Assembly (NCBI GenBank): GCA_028715395.1
Contig: JAQURY010000007.1
Coordinates: forward strand, 1-35,548
DNA length: 35,548 bases
Direction: 5' to 3'
Origin: Minisyncoccota bacterium
GTDB lineage: Bacteria > Patescibacteriota > Minisyncoccia > UBA6257 > 02-FULL-45-10c
Shown here: in pieces, positions 7,558-20,085 of the stretch
Numbering within the stretch: the first letter of the stretch is position 1
Layout of the letters: each line of letters opens with the position of its first letter
The notes under the pieces: generated by a model
What the model saw: the letters and a program-made list of their open reading frames with translations, nothing else
Databases searched by the model: none
What the model was told of the DNA's origin: nothing
Translations under genes and position numbers: made by a program

Positions 7558-8964
7558 ATGAAAAAAATCACTAAAACAATTTTAATATTGGCGGCCGCTA
7601 ATTTATGCTGGCTTAATTTTGCGTTTGCGCAGTCGGAAAATATTTCCCAGGATTTGGGAGTTTCCAAGCCGATGGTTTTGCCGACTAATCCGTTTTATTT
7701 CCTCAAGGAATTTAAGCGCGGAGTCCAGAAAACTTTTGTTTTTAATCCGGTCAAAAAGCTTGAATTGGAGCTTCAGATTGCCAGCGAGAAAATGGCTGAA
7801 TTGGGCAAGCTGGAAGAAATTATCGGACAGGATGACGCGGCTTTGATTAAGGCCATAAATAACTATGAAAATAATCTTGACGGATTAAGCGGGAAAATAA
7901 AAAATATCCAGGAGAATTACAAAAATAATTCCCGCCTGGATTCTTTCCTTGACGATTTTGTTGCCAACGGCGCCAAGCATATTGAATTTCTTTCTTATTT
8001 AAAATCAAAAACAAACGACATTAAAATTTTGCAAAAGCTGGGGGAGGCGCAGGATAAAATAGCGGCGCTGGTAGCGCAAATTTTGGCGGGAACGGAAAGT
8101 GGTGATATTTTGGAATCCCGTCTTGAAAGAGCTTTTAAAAAAACAGGAGTTAATTTAGTTGAAAAATTAAAAGCAATCGGAGCGTTGGATAAAATAGAAG
8201 AAAAATTATCGGCGGAAGAAAAAAACAGAATTCTTGATTTCAAAGAAACGCTGATTATCAATACCCAGAGCGGAATTAAAACCGAAGAAATACAAAATAT
8301 TTTTATTTCAGCTTTTGAAGAATTACAGATGGATTCGCTCAGCAAAATAAGAATTATTGATGAAATAAAAGAGGGCGCAATTAACGATGATATTAAAAGC
8401 GCGCTTAATTCCATAAGGCAGGAAGTTTTGGAACGGGCGCAGAGCGAAAAAGATCTGCAAAAAGTTCAGGCTGAAAATATGGTGAACGAAGCGGATTCAC
8501 TGGTAAATGAACTTATGGAAAAGCTGAAAAACCTCAATCTCAAAAGCGAGTTTATAAATTTGGCGATTTCCAAGGCGGATTTCAATCTTACGCAGGCGAA
8601 GAATTCTTTCCAGTACGGAGATTACGGACAGGTTTTCACATTGGCTTCTGCCGCGGCTTCTGCCGCCCGCTCGGCATTAACGCAGGTCCTGAAATTTGAG
8701 GAGAATACGGGCAATTTTGACAACGATATCCAGAATTTAAAGGAAAAATATGACGAGCTTTCGGAGCGCGCCAGAAGCATGAATTTAGACAAGGTCAGTG
8801 CCCCCGAATTCTTCGAATTTATGAAGCAAAGCGAGTCCTTGCTTGTAAAAATTTCAGATTATGTCAATAAAAAGCTCAAAGCCAGCTCGGATACCATAAT
8901 TTCTTCCATTAAGAACGTAAAAATTCTTTTATCTCAGGCGGAAAACGAGCTGAAACAATATTAA
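7558..8964 (+). CDS. Secreted DUF5667-like helical protein
   Basis: Signal peptide; PTNPFYFLKEFKRGVQKTFVFNPVKKLELELQIASEKMAE matches the DUF5667 pattern known to me; long coiled-coil-like remainder. Confidence 0.65.
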   Translation: MKKITKTILILAAANLCWLNFAFAQSENISQDLGVSKPMVLPTNPFYFLKEFKRGVQKTFVFNPVKKLELELQIASEKMAELGKLEEIIGQDDAALIKAINNYENNLDGLSGKIKNIQENYKNNSRLDSFLDDFVANGAKHIEFLSYLKSKTNDIKILQKLGEAQDKIAALVAQILAGTESGDILESRLERAFKKTGVNLVEKLKAIGALDKIEEKLSAEEKNRILDFKETLIINTQSGIKTEEIQNIFISAFEELQMDSLSKIRIIDEIKEGAINDDIKSALNSIRQEVLERAQSEKDLQKVQAENMVNEADSLVNELMEKLKNLNLKSEFINLAISKADFNLTQAKNSFQYGDYGQVFTLASAAASAARSALTQVLKFEENTGNFDNDIQNLKEKYDELSERARSMNLDKVSAPEFFEFMKQSESLLVKISDYVNKKLKASSDTIISSIKNVKILLSQAENELKQY

Positions 8965-11661: not shown

Positions 11662-11687
11662 AGCAAATTTTGAAGCCCCCAAACTTT

Positions 11688-11721
11688 GTATAGTATATGC
11701 TAATATTAGCATATACTATAC
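11688..11721. repeat. 34-nt perfect palindrome, copy 2
   Basis: Identical to copies at 1097 and 12009; right flank AGATATTATTGAGGGGATTTTT. Confidence 0.95.
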
Positions 11722-11810
11722 AGATATTATTGAGGGGATTTTTATTTGCGAAAGCCGATTTTTTGAGTTAAATTAGTTATTAGTCATTAGTCACGGGTTA
11801 TTAGTCGATT

Positions 11811-11897
11811 GGAGGCATCGCATAGCGGTCTAGTGCGCTTGCTTGGAAAGCAAGTTTCTCCGAAAGGGGATCAGAGGTTCGAATCCTCTTGCCTCCG
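11811..11897 (+). tRNA. tRNA-Ser (anticodon GGA)
   Basis: Acceptor GGAGGCA/TGCCTCC, anticodon stem-loop CTTGC-TTGGAAA-GCAAG, long variable arm CTCCGAAAGGGG, T arm GAGGTTCGAATCCTC. Confidence 0.95.
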
Positions 11898-12008
11898 CAA
11901 TAGATTTTCCCTCCGCTTTAGGCGGATCGGAAAATCATTGCTCCGATCATAGCGTCGGAGCGTTCCTTCTAAAATTTTAAAAACCCCATTTTTTTAATTC
12001 TTAAGTTT

Positions 12009-12042
12009 GTATAGTATATGCTAATATTAGCATATACTATAC
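12009..12042. repeat. 34-nt perfect palindrome, copy 3
   Basis: Identical to copies at 1097 and 11688; right flank AGATATTATTGAGGTTTTTTT. Confidence 0.95.
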
Positions 12043-12114
12043 AGATATTATTGAGGTTTTTTTGGTGTATTTAAAGTTATTACGAAAGATAAAAATAGGA
12101 GATTTTACCCTTAC

Positions 12115-12143
12115 TTGACAAAAGCACCAATGTGTGCTATACT
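12115..12143 (+). promoter_or_regulatory. Consensus sigma-70-type promoter of the large ncRNA
   Basis: TTGACA (12115-12120) - 17 nt - TATACT (12138-12143). Confidence 0.85.
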
Positions 12144-12149
12144 ACACAC

Positions 12150-12590
12150 ATATCAAGGTTGGAATGCGTGCCAAGCAGGCCCCTCCAGCCCTCTGATAAA
12201 AGCTGAATATGGGCTCTACAAGATAGTAACAGTAGATTACCCAGAGAGCAGATCGGCTGAATCATCGACCCAACGGGTGATCAGCTTAAATAAGCAGCGG
12301 GCGTTCCCACAGGTTGCCCTTCATTTGTGAAAAGGAACGAAAAAAGCGAAGGGAGAGCAAAATTGGTTGTCCGGACTAGGCAGGCAACCGGTTTAAAAAA
12401 GCCAGCATCTTGTCCAAGATGTCAAAATGGACTTTGCCTATATCTTAAAAACGGTTGCGGATATAGGCGAGAGAAAGAGGACCGCGTCTTGTCCAAGATG
12501 TTACAAAATGGACTTTGTTCTGGCCGGTTGATCGCGGCAAGAGCGAGAAGGATGATCCCCCAGGCACATAGACTTCCTGGGGCTTTTTTT
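12150..12590 (+). ncRNA. Candidate large structured non-coding RNA (about 440 nt), class not recognised
   Basis: Strong promoter and terminator bracket; 5' hairpin GGTTGGA/TCCAGCC; interleaved stems CGTTCC/GGAACG and CCCTTC/GAAGGG (H-type pseudoknot); stem GCCTATATC/GATATAGGC whose loop pairs with an upstream GCAACCG; two repeated CTTGTCCAAGATGT..CAAAATGGACTTTG modules. Confidence 0.75.
12558..12590 (+). terminator. Rho-independent terminator of the large ncRNA
   Basis: CCCCAGG-N11-CCTGGGG-C-TTTTTTT. Confidence 0.9.
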
Positions 12591-12620
12591 ATTTAAAAAT
12601 AAATGTTCTATAATAAATAT

Positions 12621-13130
12621 ATGAATAAATTAATTCCAATTATAGTTGTAGTGGTTGCGGTCGCGGCGGTTGGCGGATATCTTTTATTTGCGAATAAAAA
12701 TGCCGAATTGCCGGAAATAAATGAGGAGGTTAATTCGGAGCCGGCAACAACCGCGGACGGAAAAACAACCTGCGCGTATTTTAATGGATACGGAGATGAT
12801 TTTAAAAATGGCCAGGACAAATTACCAGGCTGGCTTTCAGTAATAAAAAACGGCAATACGCTTTGCGGAACCTATGAGCAGCTTACGGGCACTATCAATG
12901 TTGAAACTGCTTACTACACGACAAATATGTCTACCGAAGAATTGCTGAATATGTACAGGGCGGGAATATCCGCGCACGGCTGCGAAGCGAGCGCGATTTC
13001 CACAACAGAATACGCTCCGGACAGTACTTATATTTACTACTCATGTAGGCCCGGTACGGGGGAAGTTTCCATTAGCACAAAACTTCCGGGAATATATTCC
13101 GTCAGCTACCGGCTTATTAGCGTTCAATAG
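12621..13130 (+). CDS. Membrane-anchored hypothetical protein
   Basis: N-terminal TM MNKLIPIIVVVVAVAAVGGYLLFANK, extracellular domain with Cys residues; the ATG at 12621 is more plausible than 12603. Confidence 0.7.
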   Translation: MNKLIPIIVVVVAVAAVGGYLLFANKNAELPEINEEVNSEPATTADGKTTCAYFNGYGDDFKNGQDKLPGWLSVIKNGNTLCGTYEQLTGTINVETAYYTTNMSTEELLNMYRAGISAHGCEASAISTTEYAPDSTYIYYSCRPGTGEVSISTKLPGIYSVSYRLISVQ

Positions 13131-13146
13131 TAATTGATAAAATAAA

Positions 13147-14079
13147 ATGAAAAAAACTCTTTTATTAATCGCCGTGCTGTCTTTTTTGGTTGTCGGAGCG
13201 GGAATAATAAACGCGGCTGAAACAGCCGCAACAAGTACGGCTGAACTGCCGTCAGTTAGCCTTACCCCCGACAGCCCTTTTTATTTTGTTAAATCCATAA
13301 GAGAATCCATTCAAACTTTTTTCACTTTCGGGGCGGAAAATAAAGCGAAGCAATATTTGCATCTTTCGGAGGTCCGATTGGCCGAATATGAAAAAATGCT
13401 GGAAAAGGGGAAGGCCGAAATAGCCCAGAAAACTTTAGATAAATATAAAAAACAGCTTGATAGAGCGCTTGAGAAATCCAAAGAGCTTAGCGAGGCCGAA
13501 GCAATGGGAAAGGTTAGCGGAGAAATCTTGAAACATCGGGAAATATTGGAAGGTGTTCTGGAAAAAGCTCCCGAAACGGCAAAGCCCGATATTGAAAAAA
13601 TTATAGAAAAAGCGAGAGAGGCGGCGGTTAAAATGGTGGAAGAGGGGTGGAAGGATGCGCCGGCAGAAGTGCAGAAGTGCGTTAAAACATTGGTGAGCGA
13701 AGTAACCGAAAAATTCACCACAAAAGACATCCAAACAACGCTTTTAAACTGCCTGAAGCCCGGAGCAAAAATGCCAACCGAAACAATAACTATAGATGCC
13801 CTGAAAAAAATAAGGGATTTTTATGGAAACAGCTTGCCCGCGAAAGATTTGGAGAGTTTGAATGAAGTAATAGAAAATAAGAGCGGTATAATTCCGCAGG
13901 GAACGGGAATTCCATCTGGTGTTCCAAATCTTAATTTGGAGGAAATAAACAAGGTGCAGGAAGAAGCGTATAAAAATCTCACTCCGGAGCAATTGGAATA
14001 TATAAAAAAGGCGCAGGAGGAAAGCGCAAATAGCCCGCAGCCGTATATTCCCAGCAGTGGTTCGGGAATGGGTTTGTAA
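13147..14079 (+). CDS. Secreted DUF5667-like protein
   Basis: Signal peptide; LTPDSPFYFVKSIRESIQTFFTFGAENKAKQYLHLSEVRLAEYEKM is DUF5667-like. Confidence 0.7.
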   Translation: MKKTLLLIAVLSFLVVGAGIINAAETAATSTAELPSVSLTPDSPFYFVKSIRESIQTFFTFGAENKAKQYLHLSEVRLAEYEKMLEKGKAEIAQKTLDKYKKQLDRALEKSKELSEAEAMGKVSGEILKHREILEGVLEKAPETAKPDIEKIIEKAREAAVKMVEEGWKDAPAEVQKCVKTLVSEVTEKFTTKDIQTTLLNCLKPGAKMPTETITIDALKKIRDFYGNSLPAKDLESLNEVIENKSGIIPQGTGIPSGVPNLNLEEINKVQEEAYKNLTPEQLEYIKKAQEESANSPQPYIPSSGSGMGL

Positions 14080-15298: not shown

Positions 15299-15688
15299 AT
15301 GCAAACCTGGTATCAGCAAATAATAAAACCGTCTTGGGCGCCGCCTGCGTATCTTTTTGGACCGGTGTGGTCATTTCTTTATGTTTTGATTGCCGTTTCT
15401 TTCGGCAGGGTTATTTGGCTGTTTGTTAAAGGCAGTATTCCTTTTATCGTTCTTTTGCCGTTTATTTTAAATATCATTTTTAATCTCGCTTTCACGCCGA
15501 TCCAATTCGGCTTAAAAAACAATCTCTTGGCCGGAATAGATATTTTGTTGGTTCTCGGCACGCTTATCTGGGCAATGGCCGCCATTTTCCCATACGCAAA
15601 ATGGATCACCTATATCCAAATCCCGTATCTCCTTTGGGTCTCCTTCGCCACAGTTTTGCAACTGACTATTGTGTATTTGAATAGGTAA
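15299..15688 (+). CDS. TspO/MBR family protein
   Basis: KPSWAPPAYLFGPVWSFLYVLIAVS and N..FTPIQFGLKN signature-like motifs, about 5 TM segments. Confidence 0.85.
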   Translation: MQTWYQQIIKPSWAPPAYLFGPVWSFLYVLIAVSFGRVIWLFVKGSIPFIVLLPFILNIIFNLAFTPIQFGLKNNLLAGIDILLVLGTLIWAMAAIFPYAKWITYIQIPYLLWVSFATVLQLTIVYLNR

Positions 15689-15780
15689 AAGGGAATTTTC
15701 GTCTCACTTCTTTCGTCTTACATCTAGCCTACAGCGGAACATTCCCAAATTAGCTGGATTTTGGTAGGATTTAATTAAAT

Positions 15781-16128
15781 ATGGATAAAATTAAAGAATT
15801 AACTGAAAAAATAATTGCTTTTAGAGACGCTCGAGACTGGAAACAATTCCATAACCCCAAAGATTGTGCTATTTCTTTGTCTTTAGAAGCCTCTGAGGTA
15901 CTAGAACATTTTCAATGGAAATCAAAAGAAGAAATTAACGAATACATAAAAACTCATAAAGAGCATATTGGAGAAGAACTTGCAGATGTTCTTTATTGGG
16001 TTTTATTAATGAGCCACGATCTTGATATCGATATTTTGAATATATCTGATAAAAAACTTGAAAAGAACAATGAAAAATATCCTGTTGAAAAAGCGAAAGG
16101 AAAAAATACTAAATATAATAAATTATGA
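15781..16128 (+). CDS. MazG-like nucleotide pyrophosphohydrolase
   Basis: SLEASEVLEHFQWKSKEEI and EELADVLYWVLLMSHDLDID: EExxE-type and ExxD metal motifs of the MazG/dCTPase family. Confidence 0.85.
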   Translation: MDKIKELTEKIIAFRDARDWKQFHNPKDCAISLSLEASEVLEHFQWKSKEEINEYIKTHKEHIGEELADVLYWVLLMSHDLDIDILNISDKKLEKNNEKYPVEKAKGKNTKYNKL

Positions 16129-17213
16129 TTCCTGATTTTATTAATAAGAAAAAATTATATAAATTTACTGGCCCACCAGAAAATTGGGTAACTGCCATAA
16201 AATTCATGACTTGGGGGCTTGAAGAAAAATATCGTAACCAATGGAAAAATATCATGCCTGGTGATATTTTTTTAATGCATTCCACCTCTACAAATACGAG
16301 AGTTGAGGGGGCAATTTCGGCCGTTATTGGTTTTGGCATAGTAGGGATAAATCCAACAATTAAAAACACACCCCTCTGGTTAGAAGAAATTGAAAAAAAT
16401 ATCAATAAATGGCCATTGCTAGTGCCATTTTCGGAAATTTATTTATTTAGTCCATATTTTGAAAATAATATTATTCCGGAACCTGCTAAAAATAATATTT
16501 CGGAAATTACAGCTGTATCATTAGAAATACTTAAAAATTCAAGAAGACTTTCTACTATAAAAGGTTTTCCCCAAATGGGTTCATTTTCCTCTGTTAAGCC
16601 AGAGGTGGTAGCGCAAATATTTTCTGGAATAACAAAGTTATTTGTTATTGGACAAGAATCTATTTCTTCAGATTATATACCAACTCCATTACTTAAACTT
16701 GATGATGTAAGAGATCAAAATAGATATGGTACTACATTACAAAATTTAGACGTAGTTAAAAGTAAAACTTTTACAGCAAAAGGATCAAATTATAGTAAAG
16801 ACCCCGTATTGCTTGAAAGAGCAGAAAGGGCTCACCAAACAACCTTAGAGAAATTAATGAATATTTTTAAGGAGGCTGGTTATAATACTTATTTTAATAA
16901 ACACGTAGATTTATTTGCTACCAAAGAAGATAAATCATTTCTTTTTGAGGTAAAAAGTAATGAAAATAAGAATTTTTTACCGCAAGTAAGAAAGGGTGTC
17001 GTTCAACTATTTGAATATGAGTATTTTGAAATTAAAAAATTTCAAATAGAAAATAAAACTAAAAATATTATATTCAAAAATTTAGCTTTTTCAACTCAGC
17101 CGACAAATATCGAGTACGCTAATTTTATGAATACATTAAATTTGGGTGTTTGTTATTTTGAAAAAAATAATCTGAAAAGTATAGGCAAGCAAGTCGGTAC
17201 AAATTTTTTATAG
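16125..17213 (+). CDS. PUA/EVE-like domain fused to a PD-(D/E)XK-type nuclease (putative)
   Basis: N-term ENWVTAIKFMTWGLEEKYRNQWKNIMPGDIFLMHST...VEGAISAVIGFGIVG resembles EVE/PUA-like layout; C-term VDLFATKEDKSFLFEVKSNENKNFLPQVRKGVVQLFEYEYFE fits D..EVK nuclease motif; start overlaps mazG stop (ATGA). Confidence 0.5.
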   Translation: MIPDFINKKKLYKFTGPPENWVTAIKFMTWGLEEKYRNQWKNIMPGDIFLMHSTSTNTRVEGAISAVIGFGIVGINPTIKNTPLWLEEIEKNINKWPLLVPFSEIYLFSPYFENNIIPEPAKNNISEITAVSLEILKNSRRLSTIKGFPQMGSFSSVKPEVVAQIFSGITKLFVIGQESISSDYIPTPLLKLDDVRDQNRYGTTLQNLDVVKSKTFTAKGSNYSKDPVLLERAERAHQTTLEKLMNIFKEAGYNTYFNKHVDLFATKEDKSFLFEVKSNENKNFLPQVRKGVVQLFEYEYFEIKKFQIENKTKNIIFKNLAFSTQPTNIEYANFMNTLNLGVCYFEKNNLKSIGKQVGTNFL

Positions 17214-17232
17214 CATAAAAAAGTTTTTAAGA

Positions 17233-17258
17233 AGAGGCAGATAATGCCTCTTTTAATT
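17233..17258 (+). terminator. Terminator-like hairpin
   Basis: AGAGGCA GATAA TGCCTCT TTTAATTTT. Confidence 0.6.
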
Positions 17259-17400
17259 TTCTTAAATTTATGGTATAATAAAAAAAATTCAGGGGCTAAA
17301 ACCCCGACGAGAAACTTATATTTCAAGCTGGGGGAGGATTTGGTTTGTTGCTGAAAGATTAACTATTAATAATGAGTGGAAAGATAAAAATTTAATTGTT

Positions 17401-18666
17401 ATGGCAAGAAAAATTGAGCCAAAAGAAATACTTAAACAAAGCCTTAGAACAAAGAAGGTGTATTTCTACAAGGGCGATGGATTTGAAGTAAAATCACGAG
17501 AAGTATTAAAAAATGGCGTCGAGATACATTTTCCGTTTGATATCCGCGATGGATCTCAAAAATACAAATATATCTCAGTAATTGTTTTCGAAGGTATTTC
17601 TCCAACTATCGTGCACGGAGTTTACAAGAAATGGCAACGAGGACTTGGATTTACGCGCTATTTATCGCCGTTAATTGATTTTTTGGAAAACTATCCTGGA
17701 ATTGGGAAAATAATAATTTCAAAAAAGAAGAACTCTCAATTGAAAACAGTTGAGATCGTATTCAATGTTGATGACATCGAACGCCTTTATCAAAGAATCC
17801 GGCCGTTCCGTGATCAGCAAAGCGAAGAATTAAAAGGATTAACTAGGAACTTATTTGCTGATATTTTTCCTAATAAAGTTCAAAAAGAATCGGCAAGATA
17901 TTATTCGGGACAATTAACTCGTCTAGTCGAGTCCAAATCAATCAAGCCAAGCCAATTATCTTCGAATGATATCCAGGCCATCAGCGGGTTAATTGCGTCG
18001 CTTCCCGCAGAACATCTATTTATTAAACAAGGAAAATTTATAGCGACCAAAGAAAAATTTGATATTGTTTCGATTGAATCTACCTTAAAAAAATATAGAA
18101 AACTTCTTGCGCGAAAAAATGATTCAAAAAAACTCGAGGAAGATTGGCATCAATTTTTCAAAAAACATAGTTGGATTCTGTCTCAAATGTTTGCATCGCC
18201 TATGGTGATATTTGGAGATAAGGCTTATGTGGGAGGGAAAGACCTAAATAATCAGAAAGGAAAGATCGTAGATTTTATATACAAAAATAGTTTTTCGAGA
18301 AGCGCTGCAATTATTGAAATTAAAACTCACAAAACACTCCTTATGATGAAAAGGCCCTATCGTAAACCCGATATATTTTCGACTAGCAAGGAGCTTAGTG
18401 GTGCCATTAATCAAGCGCTTGACCAAAAAGATACGCTACAAAAAAACTACCACACCGTTGCAAGAAATACTGGCGTGGAATCGTTTAATCCAGTCTGCAT
18501 AGTGTTGGCGGGGCAAATTACAACTATGAAGAAAGATTATATGAAATCTTTTGAATTATTCAGAAATAATTCTAAAGATGCAATTATTGTAACTTACGAT
18601 GAGCTTTTAAAACGCATCGAAACCATACTTGAAATTTTTCTAAATAAACCAAAAAAGAAAACATAA
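17401..18666 (+). CDS. sduA: Shedu-type anti-phage nuclease (DUF4263-like)
   Basis: C-terminal EEDWHQFFKKHSWILSQMF...GKIVDFIYKN..SRSAAIIEIKTHKTLLM...SKELSGAINQALDQKDTLQKNY matches the DUF4263/Shedu pattern. Confidence 0.75.
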   Translation: MARKIEPKEILKQSLRTKKVYFYKGDGFEVKSREVLKNGVEIHFPFDIRDGSQKYKYISVIVFEGISPTIVHGVYKKWQRGLGFTRYLSPLIDFLENYPGIGKIIISKKKNSQLKTVEIVFNVDDIERLYQRIRPFRDQQSEELKGLTRNLFADIFPNKVQKESARYYSGQLTRLVESKSIKPSQLSSNDIQAISGLIASLPAEHLFIKQGKFIATKEKFDIVSIESTLKKYRKLLARKNDSKKLEEDWHQFFKKHSWILSQMFASPMVIFGDKAYVGGKDLNNQKGKIVDFIYKNSFSRSAAIIEIKTHKTLLMMKRPYRKPDIFSTSKELSGAINQALDQKDTLQKNYHTVARNTGVESFNPVCIVLAGQITTMKKDYMKSFELFRNNSKDAIIVTYDELLKRIETILEIFLNKPKKKT

Positions 18667-18731
18667 GTAAAGCTTTTAACGAAAACACATTAATATAAAT
18701 ATTAATCAGCAAAAAATCATAAAATAAATTT

Positions 18732-19055
18732 ATGGAAAATAAAGAAAATTATACAAAAGAAGAAATTTTTGAGATAGAAAATATTCTAAGGGAAAAATTA
18801 AAAGGGACAGTTTTCCGAATTAATGTTTTAGATATTATTTATATCGATGATTATCTTTTTGGAGAGAATGGAAATAAGGGAGGGGGTGTATATAAAATTA
18901 CTTTAAATACAACACGCGTTAATAAACCGTATGACTTTGAGCCAGAAGTTATAATAAAAAAGACGGATATTTCTAAAGTTTCATATCATATACTTCATGA
19001 GCTTTGGGCACATGCAAGTGACGAGGATAAAAATATACTATGGAGAAAACTTTAA
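18732..19055 (+). CDS. Hypothetical protein in the defence-like island
   Basis: Open frame of 107 aa with consistent AT-rich coding style; no family recognised. Confidence 0.55.
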   Translation: MENKENYTKEEIFEIENILREKLKGTVFRINVLDIIYIDDYLFGENGNKGGGVYKITLNTTRVNKPYDFEPEVIIKKTDISKVSYHILHELWAHASDEDKNILWRKL

Positions 19056-19067
19056 AAAAATAAATTT

Positions 19068-19547
19068 ATGACAGACCACATTAAATTTTCAAAAGAATTA
19101 ATAAAGGGAAGAATTGCGGAAATTGTGTTTGAACAAATGTTTAGAGAATCTGGTAATTTTACTATTTTAAGATTTGGATATGAATATACATTGCCCGAAT
19201 TAGCGCAATTTCAGCACTCTGTAGAATTGCAAAAAGTTTTAGAGAATATGAGGCATACGCCCGATTTTGTTTTGATATCGCAAAGCAAGAAGGAAGTTTA
19301 TTTGGTTGAGGTGAAATATAGATCTAATTATTATGAAGATGAAATTAAACAAATTGCAGAAGAGACCTTAAAAAAATGGGATCCATCATTTTTGTTTTTA
19401 GCTACTCCCAAAGGATTTTTCTTTGGTCCTTGCAACACAATTGTAACTGATAATGGAAAAATAGGAGTCTTATATGACAAATGGGCAAGTAAAGAAATCC
19501 AAGAAAAATATCTTGAATTACTTAATGAATTTGAACGCAGGGGATAA
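19068..19547 (+). CDS. Small PD-(D/E)XK nuclease-like protein
   Basis: KGRIAEIVFEQMFRE, HTPDFVLISQSKKEVYLVEVKYRSNYYEDEIKQ: E, PD and ExK core motifs. Confidence 0.6.
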   Translation: MTDHIKFSKELIKGRIAEIVFEQMFRESGNFTILRFGYEYTLPELAQFQHSVELQKVLENMRHTPDFVLISQSKKEVYLVEVKYRSNYYEDEIKQIAEETLKKWDPSFLFLATPKGFFFGPCNTIVTDNGKIGVLYDKWASKEIQEKYLELLNEFERRG

Positions 19548-19695
19548 ATAACTCCCAACCCCCATCATCTAAATAGTTAATTGGTGAATTGGTAACTTTC
19601 GAAATAAGAGTCTTAATTTTGTTTGACAAAATAGGCAAATTATCTCAAAATCAAAATAGTATTTTAATGCTTTAAATAAGGGGGGGGGTGAGCTC

Positions 19696-20085
19696 GTGAA
19701 TTACATTACTTATAACGGCCCATTGTGGGAAAGACATGAGCTTACATGCCCGCATTGTGGAAAAAGAAGCGTATATAATTTTCGTCTTGGCTGTGTCTTG
19801 TTTTACGTAACTTGCAGAGAGTGTGGCAAACAGTTCTGGCCGACAGAAATAGAAAACGCCAGGAAAAAGGAAGCTGAAGAGTGGGCCAGGAAAGATAAAG
19901 AAGAAGAGGCTCGGAAAAAAAGAGAATTGCGAGAGGGAAGAGAGGACACGGCGAGAAGCATGGATGTGGGTGGATGCCACGGCAAACTATATGGCAAGCT
20001 ACACGGATGTGAAAAATGCGGCAGCGATTCTTGCAAAGCAGCATATGCCGCAAGCATAGGAAAGAAACACTGGGAATTAGATTAA
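19696..20085 (+). CDS. Zinc-ribbon-like hypothetical protein (GTG start)
   Basis: LTCPHCGKRSVYNF...LFYVTCRECGKQFWP (CxxC..CxxC), Lys/Glu-rich helix, second Cys cluster CHGKLYGKLHGCEKCGSDSC; G-rich tract upstream. Confidence 0.6.
   Translation: MNYITYNGPLWERHELTCPHCGKRSVYNFRLGCVLFYVTCRECGKQFWPTEIENARKKEAEEWARKDKEEEARKKRELREGREDTARSMDVGGCHGKLYGKLHGCEKCGSDSCKAAYAASIGKKHWELD

Follow-up and report, generated by a model that had tools for sequence, protein, structure and literature searches.

A candidate lineage-specific non-coding RNA gene beside a tRNA-Ser gene in a Patescibacteria genome

Introduction

Does a GC-rich stretch between a tRNA gene and an orphan protein gene of a Patescibacteria genome encode an RNA, and if so, of what kind? 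Patescibacteria have small genomes, and the literature searched says little about non-coding RNAs in them. It would be worth knowing of a 430-nt RNA gene retained by such a compact genome, and the locus is currently an orphan candidate for one. It lies in a 35.5-kb window (the whole stretch of DNA analysed here), which is contig C21 of a 0.7-Mb genome (G000).

A preliminary description of this DNA had proposed a multi-pseudoknot RNA gene of no recognised class, possibly restricted to the CPR. It was right about the non-coding unit and the lack of a known class. On pseudoknots and CPR-wide occurrence it was wrong or unsupported.

The gene order is groES-groEL, tRNA-Ser(GGA), the candidate RNA, an orphan gene, a DUF5667 gene, and then accessory genes, one of which encodes a Shedu SduA-like protein. 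The main features of the locus are as follows.

11811-11898: tRNA-Ser(GGA), 5' of the candidate RNA region, preceded by groES-groEL
12115-12143, + strand: promoter TTGACA-17-TATACT with extended -10 (TG), 11 of 12 consensus positions
12150-12590, + strand: predicted RNA transcript of about 430-440 nt, its 5' end placed from the promoter
12558-12590, + strand: intrinsic terminator CCCCAGG-N11-CCTGGGG-C-T7, -12 kcal/mol, hairpin at 12558-12582
12603 or 12621 to 13130: orphan gene of 169-175 codons, 3' of the candidate RNA

The protein of the 12621-13130 gene is secreted or membrane-anchored in appearance. Searches with 12621-13127 give no family match, no toxin family is recognised, and viral contigs hold no match. 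The window encodes two DUF5667 proteins (7558-8964 and 13147-14079).

Transcription signals

The promoter and terminator that were said to bracket the region are both present. The TTGACA box occupies 12115-12120 and TATACT 12138-12143, with a 17-nt spacer. In this genome, 51 kb of intergenic strand length contains 13 sites that match at least 11 of the 12 positions, whereas 512 kb of coding sequence contains 10. Such sites are enriched in intergenic DNA, and the promoter exceeds chance. The terminator combines a GC-rich stem of 7 bp and a loop of 11 nt with a tract of seven T; the terminator scan missed it because a loop of that length is outside the scan's range. A sigma-70-type RNA polymerase would start at about 12150 and stop near 12590, giving an RNA of about 430-440 nt.

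Only about 30 nt, without a gene, separate the end of the terminator from the ATG at 12621. The region could in principle be a long cis-acting leader of the 12621-13130 gene, similar to a riboswitch or attenuator, in which the terminator serves as the off switch. This reading is improbable. The role of a leader is unsupported because the downstream gene is an orphan with its own TATAAT at about 12610 (located by eye), which could serve a leaderless start. Moreover, inspection by eye found no anti-terminator complementary to CCCCAGG, and 440 nt is long for a leader.

Base composition and intergenic survey

The transcript region is 48% GC, compared with 31% in the adjoining intergenic DNA and 40% in the window, and the promoter and terminator enclose exactly this GC-rich part. 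Long, ORF-free intergenic regions of raised GC in AT-rich genomes are candidates for non-coding RNAs (GC-IGR candidates), and the locus has these properties. Selection by GC and length has uncovered structured RNAs in AT-rich genomes elsewhere, and a large portion of the regions so selected are reported to be without homologues, in some cases even among close species (PMC8632094).

Genes were called and long GC-rich intergenic regions listed over 486 kb of this genome and, in the sister species, about 359 kb. Apart from a few regions below 370 nt that contain large open frames, those listed correspond to 16S, 23S and 5S rRNA, to RNase P RNA and tmRNA, to regions bearing tRNAs, or to reading frames missed in gene calling. 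In the 486 kb of this genome, the two clearest leftovers are the candidate locus and a 565-nt region on contig C28, here called RNA B.

Two observations concern the rRNA genes themselves. The 3' end of 16S rRNA is GGATCATTTTATTAGAG, without the usual anti-Shine-Dalgarno CCTCC (L163:8150-8200, G000:C8). The 23S rRNA gene contains a group I intron match (L212:625-825, G000:C37).

Coding potential

Open frames of 71 and 89 amino acids exist at 12115-12330 and 12327-12596, and either could be a small-protein gene. This is scarcely credible. The 71-aa frame begins inside the -35 box, and the 89-aa frame passes through the terminator. Their coding scores are -0.39 and -0.28, against +0.2 to +0.4 for typical genes. 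Codon-usage scores of the locus are negative in all frames, and those of most window genes are positive; the exceptions with atypical codon usage are found mostly from about 15300 onward, in the accessory segment. Nine longer pieces of the six-frame translation have no Pfam match, the longest of them have no PHROGs match either, and tblastn finds no match to the 89-aa frame in plasmids. With neither a coding signal nor a family match in these frames, the non-coding nature claimed for the region is upheld.

Known RNA classes

When the entire window is run through cmscan with Rfam 15, two tRNAs are the only matches. In a relaxed search of 12050-12640 (E up to 10), the best match is to a CRISPR-repeat model at E 0.41, far under its cut-off. 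Within the region there is no covariance-model match at gathering score to SRP RNA, 6S RNA, OLE, GOLLD, ROOL or other Rfam 15 families, nor to RNase P RNA (RF00010) or tmRNA (RF00023), and no tRNA-like ends or tag frame. The genuine tmRNA and RNase P RNA of this genome are found elsewhere (C28:5886-6204 and C23:2896-3248, respectively), and therefore the locus is not a diverged form of one or the other. Even with the thresholds relaxed, no Rfam family fits, as expected of an RNA said to belong to no recognised class.

Predicted structure

The stems quoted in the preliminary description (GGTTGGA/TCCAGCC, CGTTCC/GGAACG, CCCTTC/GAAGGG, GCCTATATC/GATATAGGC and CGGTTGC/GCAACCG) are all where it placed them. 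The predicted elements, in order, are as follows.

12151-12198, + strand: 5' hairpin TATCA/TGATA plus GGTTGGA/TCCAGCC, mean pair probability 0.90-0.96
12210-12243, + strand: hairpin TGGG-TCTAC / GTAGA-CCCA, pair probability 0.95-0.98
12255-12286, + strand: hairpin GGCTGA-ATCATC / GGTGAT-TCAGCT, pair probability 0.83-0.85
12302-12353, + strand: possible H-type pseudoknot CGTTCC/GGAACG with CCCTTC/GAAGGG, uncertain; stems perfect, nested fold z 0.09
12360-12394, + strand: 12-bp hairpin AAATTGGTTGTC/GGCAACCGGTTT, pair probability 0.82; z -3.1 for 12355-12400
12404-12436, + strand: module copy 1 (AGCATCTTGTCCAAGATGTCAAAATGGACTTTG), direct repeats D1 and D2
12433-12471, + strand: 13-bp hairpin TTTGCCTATATCT/GGATATAGGCGAG, tip of the long arm, pair probability 0.87
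12485-12517, + strand: module copy 2 (CGTCTTGTCCAAGATGTTACAAAATGGACTTTG), predicted to pair with copy 1 into one long arm
12514-12547, + strand: 3' hairpin TTTGTTCT..GCCG / CGGC..AGAGCGAG, pair probability 0.84-0.99

Compared with its own shuffles, the whole region folds with a z of -2.8 on the + strand and -1.4 on the complement. Without the terminator tail the value is -2.3, and 15 of 110 random 426-nt windows of the genome (mean z -0.77) are as low or lower. The tmRNA and RNase P RNA of the same genome reach -5.2 and -5.6. The folding of the region, in which the preliminary description saw dense RNA-like complementarity, is thus unexceptional for this genome.

Individual elements do exceed chance. 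These are the 9-bp hairpin with its flanks (12430-12475, z -4.1, none of 200 shuffles as good), the 12-bp hairpin at 12360-12394 and the module duplication, in addition to the promoter.

The proposal of several pseudoknots is not supported: interleaved stems are no more frequent than chance would give, and each module copy is predicted to pair with the other. One H-type pseudoknot is observed against a shuffle mean of 1.7, with as many in 197 of 300 shuffles. A 6+6-bp pseudoknot of this type arises in 35 of 300. For the GCAACCG segment there are three possible partners (12312-12318, 12363-12369 and 12452-12458), of which 12363-12369 is favoured. Five occurrences of GGTTG were considered as a signal and rejected, as 39 of 500 shuffles equal that number.

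The duplication of a module of about 30 nt, at 12404-12436 and 12485-12517, is confirmed. Each copy is nearly self-complementary, and the predicted pairing between copies (p about 0.93) encloses the 13-bp hairpin. It consists of helices 12404-12412/12494-12502 and 12415-12422/12484-12491 (p 0.93-0.94). The only change between copies inside the module palindrome is A to G, which keeps the pair. Two local pseudoknots would be an alternative to the long arm with similar energy, according to the author's estimate rather than a pseudoknot model. Overall, the RNA would probably fold into a row of hairpins and one long arm, formed by the paired module copies around the 13-bp hairpin.

Conservation

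The candidate RNA occurs in one species among about 600 related genomes searched. Its own genome gives the only match, and no homologue is found in the 17 family genomes or the sister species. Using blastn, no second copy was found in 61 relatives, in the 246 genomes sampled from the order or in the 389 from the phylum. It was likewise not found in phages or plasmids, or by a search for two DNA patterns in viral contigs. Matches near E 0.01-0.001 occur in about the number expected by chance over that many genomes. Nearly all of the borderline matches checked fall in reading frames of other genes and were rejected as homologues.

Single-sequence covariance models were built for 12355-12530 (R1) and 12150-12298 (R2). 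R1 finds nothing in the family or phylum and R2 nothing in the order, and neither adds anything in stretches of this and the sister genome. As a control for sensitivity, a search with the tmRNA of this genome recovers its sister counterpart at 87% identity (E 1e-106), with weaker matches through much of the family. The candidate RNA is therefore absent from the sister species or changed beyond recognition. Without a homologue there is no covariation for it, and the suggestion of a class shared across, and restricted to, the CPR fails in these 17 family, 246 order and 389 phylum genomes.

Genomic context

The contig and the sister genome are collinear as far as groEL, and again from about 20767 onward; groEL and the ribosomal-protein block match between the two. 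Between these points, tRNA-Ser of the sister genome (94% identical) is preceded by a radical-SAM gene, LemA and others and followed by a GreA-like gene. The genome studied here carries tRNA-Ser, the candidate RNA and about 8 kb of accessory genes. The candidate RNA is missing from the position after tRNA-Ser in the sister species. No integrase family is present among the proteins scanned, and tRNA-Ser has no attachment-site repeats of 12 nt or more.

The candidate RNA lies in a segment that differs from the sister genome, a position as compatible with an accessory gene as with one in decay. The locus could be non-functional or decaying accessory DNA: a GC-richer remnant behind tRNA-Ser, produced by gain and loss, with a chance promoter and the terminator of a lost gene. 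Its absence from the sister at the same place and the lack of homologues agree with decay, as do a fold z within the genome's distribution and pseudoknots not above chance. However, the GC-rich part is framed exactly by a promoter matching 11 of 12 positions and a terminator, the six frames hold no trace of a protein family, and the local hairpins are very stable. In addition, the only change in the palindrome of the duplicated module preserves pairing. Decay is thus a serious alternative, although an unlikely one.

An accessory block with atypical codon usage at 15299-20085 encodes TspO, a MazG-like protein and a zinc-ribbon protein, together with the two features listed below. The block is absent from the sister genome between tRNA-Ser and rpsL.

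17401-18666: Shedu SduA-like nuclease
19068-19547: TnsA-like endonuclease fragment

A repeated palindrome, TGTATAGTATATGCTAATATTAGCATATACTATACA, is also found in this genome, with at least 7 copies (91-100% identical) in 281 kb. It is REP-like or MITE-like. Two copies flank tRNA-Ser, and diverged copies exist in the sister species.

Window 11685-11745, 12006-12056 and 1096-1151: copies of the palindrome
L163:5062, L162:7506 and 2340, L175:17416: further copies

RNA B

RNA B (G000:C28:12493-13057, L172) is a 565-nt ORF-free, GC-rich unit with a promoter, a terminator and no Rfam match, flanked by ileS and a nitrilase gene. The sister species has a relative (G001:C7:145-450; L191, L222) that is 74% identical over about 220 nt (E 4e-36). 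The two copies show two-sided compensatory changes at 3 of 47 consensus pairs and vary strongly in length, about 510 nt compared with only about 290 nt in the sister. This relative permits comparative testing. As a possible new RNA, RNA B is more promising than the locus itself.

RNA B and the candidate RNA are the same kind of transcription unit, both without an Rfam match. They differ in that RNA B is conserved with covariation in the sister species, and the two have no alignable sequence. As a special case of a stand-alone non-coding RNA gene, the candidate could be a diverged copy of RNA B. Both are long, GC-rich and TTGACA-driven, their terminators share CCCAGG/CCTGGG, and a weak common motif, GATAGnAACAGTA, gives a covariance-model E of 0.009 over 591 nt. 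However, mutual blastn is at chance (best E 0.27, in the terminator), and the motif is differently placed in the two RNAs. The common terminator was rejected as a sign of kinship: among all 165 perfect-stem terminators, unrelated loci commonly share cores. Descent from a common RNA is accordingly quite doubtful. Equally doubtful is the broader idea that both are diverged members of a novel class of stand-alone structured RNAs in this genus, one that evolves extremely fast. Such a class would be too variable for sequence or covariance search, and would have internal duplications of modules and its own function.

Interpretation

The locus is probably a lineage-specific stand-alone non-coding RNA gene. 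This reading is preferred because transcription signals bracket the GC-rich part, coding scores are negative, the survey leaves the region over, local hairpins are present, and folding is biased towards one strand. These signals, the GC contrast, the lack of coding signal, the absence from relatives and the local hairpins are direct observations. Points against it are the lack of a homologue or covariation in relatives and a folding energy that is ordinary for the genome.

Action in trans, through base pairing or by holding a protein, is a tentative proposal that falls somewhat short of even chances. The product would then most likely be a structured regulatory RNA, pairing through exposed loops or holding a protein. 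Complementarity of the candidate RNA to 16S rRNA is not above that of shuffles.

Comparison with known systems

tmRNA. The candidate RNA has a similar length and promoter strength, and tmRNA itself has pseudoknots in series. It differs in having neither tRNA-like ends nor a tag frame.

Large ornate bacterial RNAs. OLE, GOLLD and ROOL are also long stand-alone structured non-coding RNAs. These classes are conserved across many genomes, whereas the candidate RNA is confined to one species and matches nothing in Rfam at a useful score.

Type III toxin-antitoxin systems. In systems of the ToxI type, repeated hairpin or pseudoknot modules precede a terminator and a gene of about 170 codons. The candidate RNA likewise has repeated modules, a terminator and then a gene of about 170 codons. 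Here, however, there are just two module copies, 81 nt apart, and the downstream protein matches no toxin family; family searches of 12621-13127 find no ToxN-like endoribonuclease.

Orphan GC-rich intergenic regions. The candidate RNA resembles the regions described in other AT-rich genomes (PMC8632094) in being long, GC-rich and ORF-free, grouped with known non-coding RNA genes, and without homologues. It differs from them in being bracketed by a promoter that matches 11 of 12 consensus positions and by a terminator.
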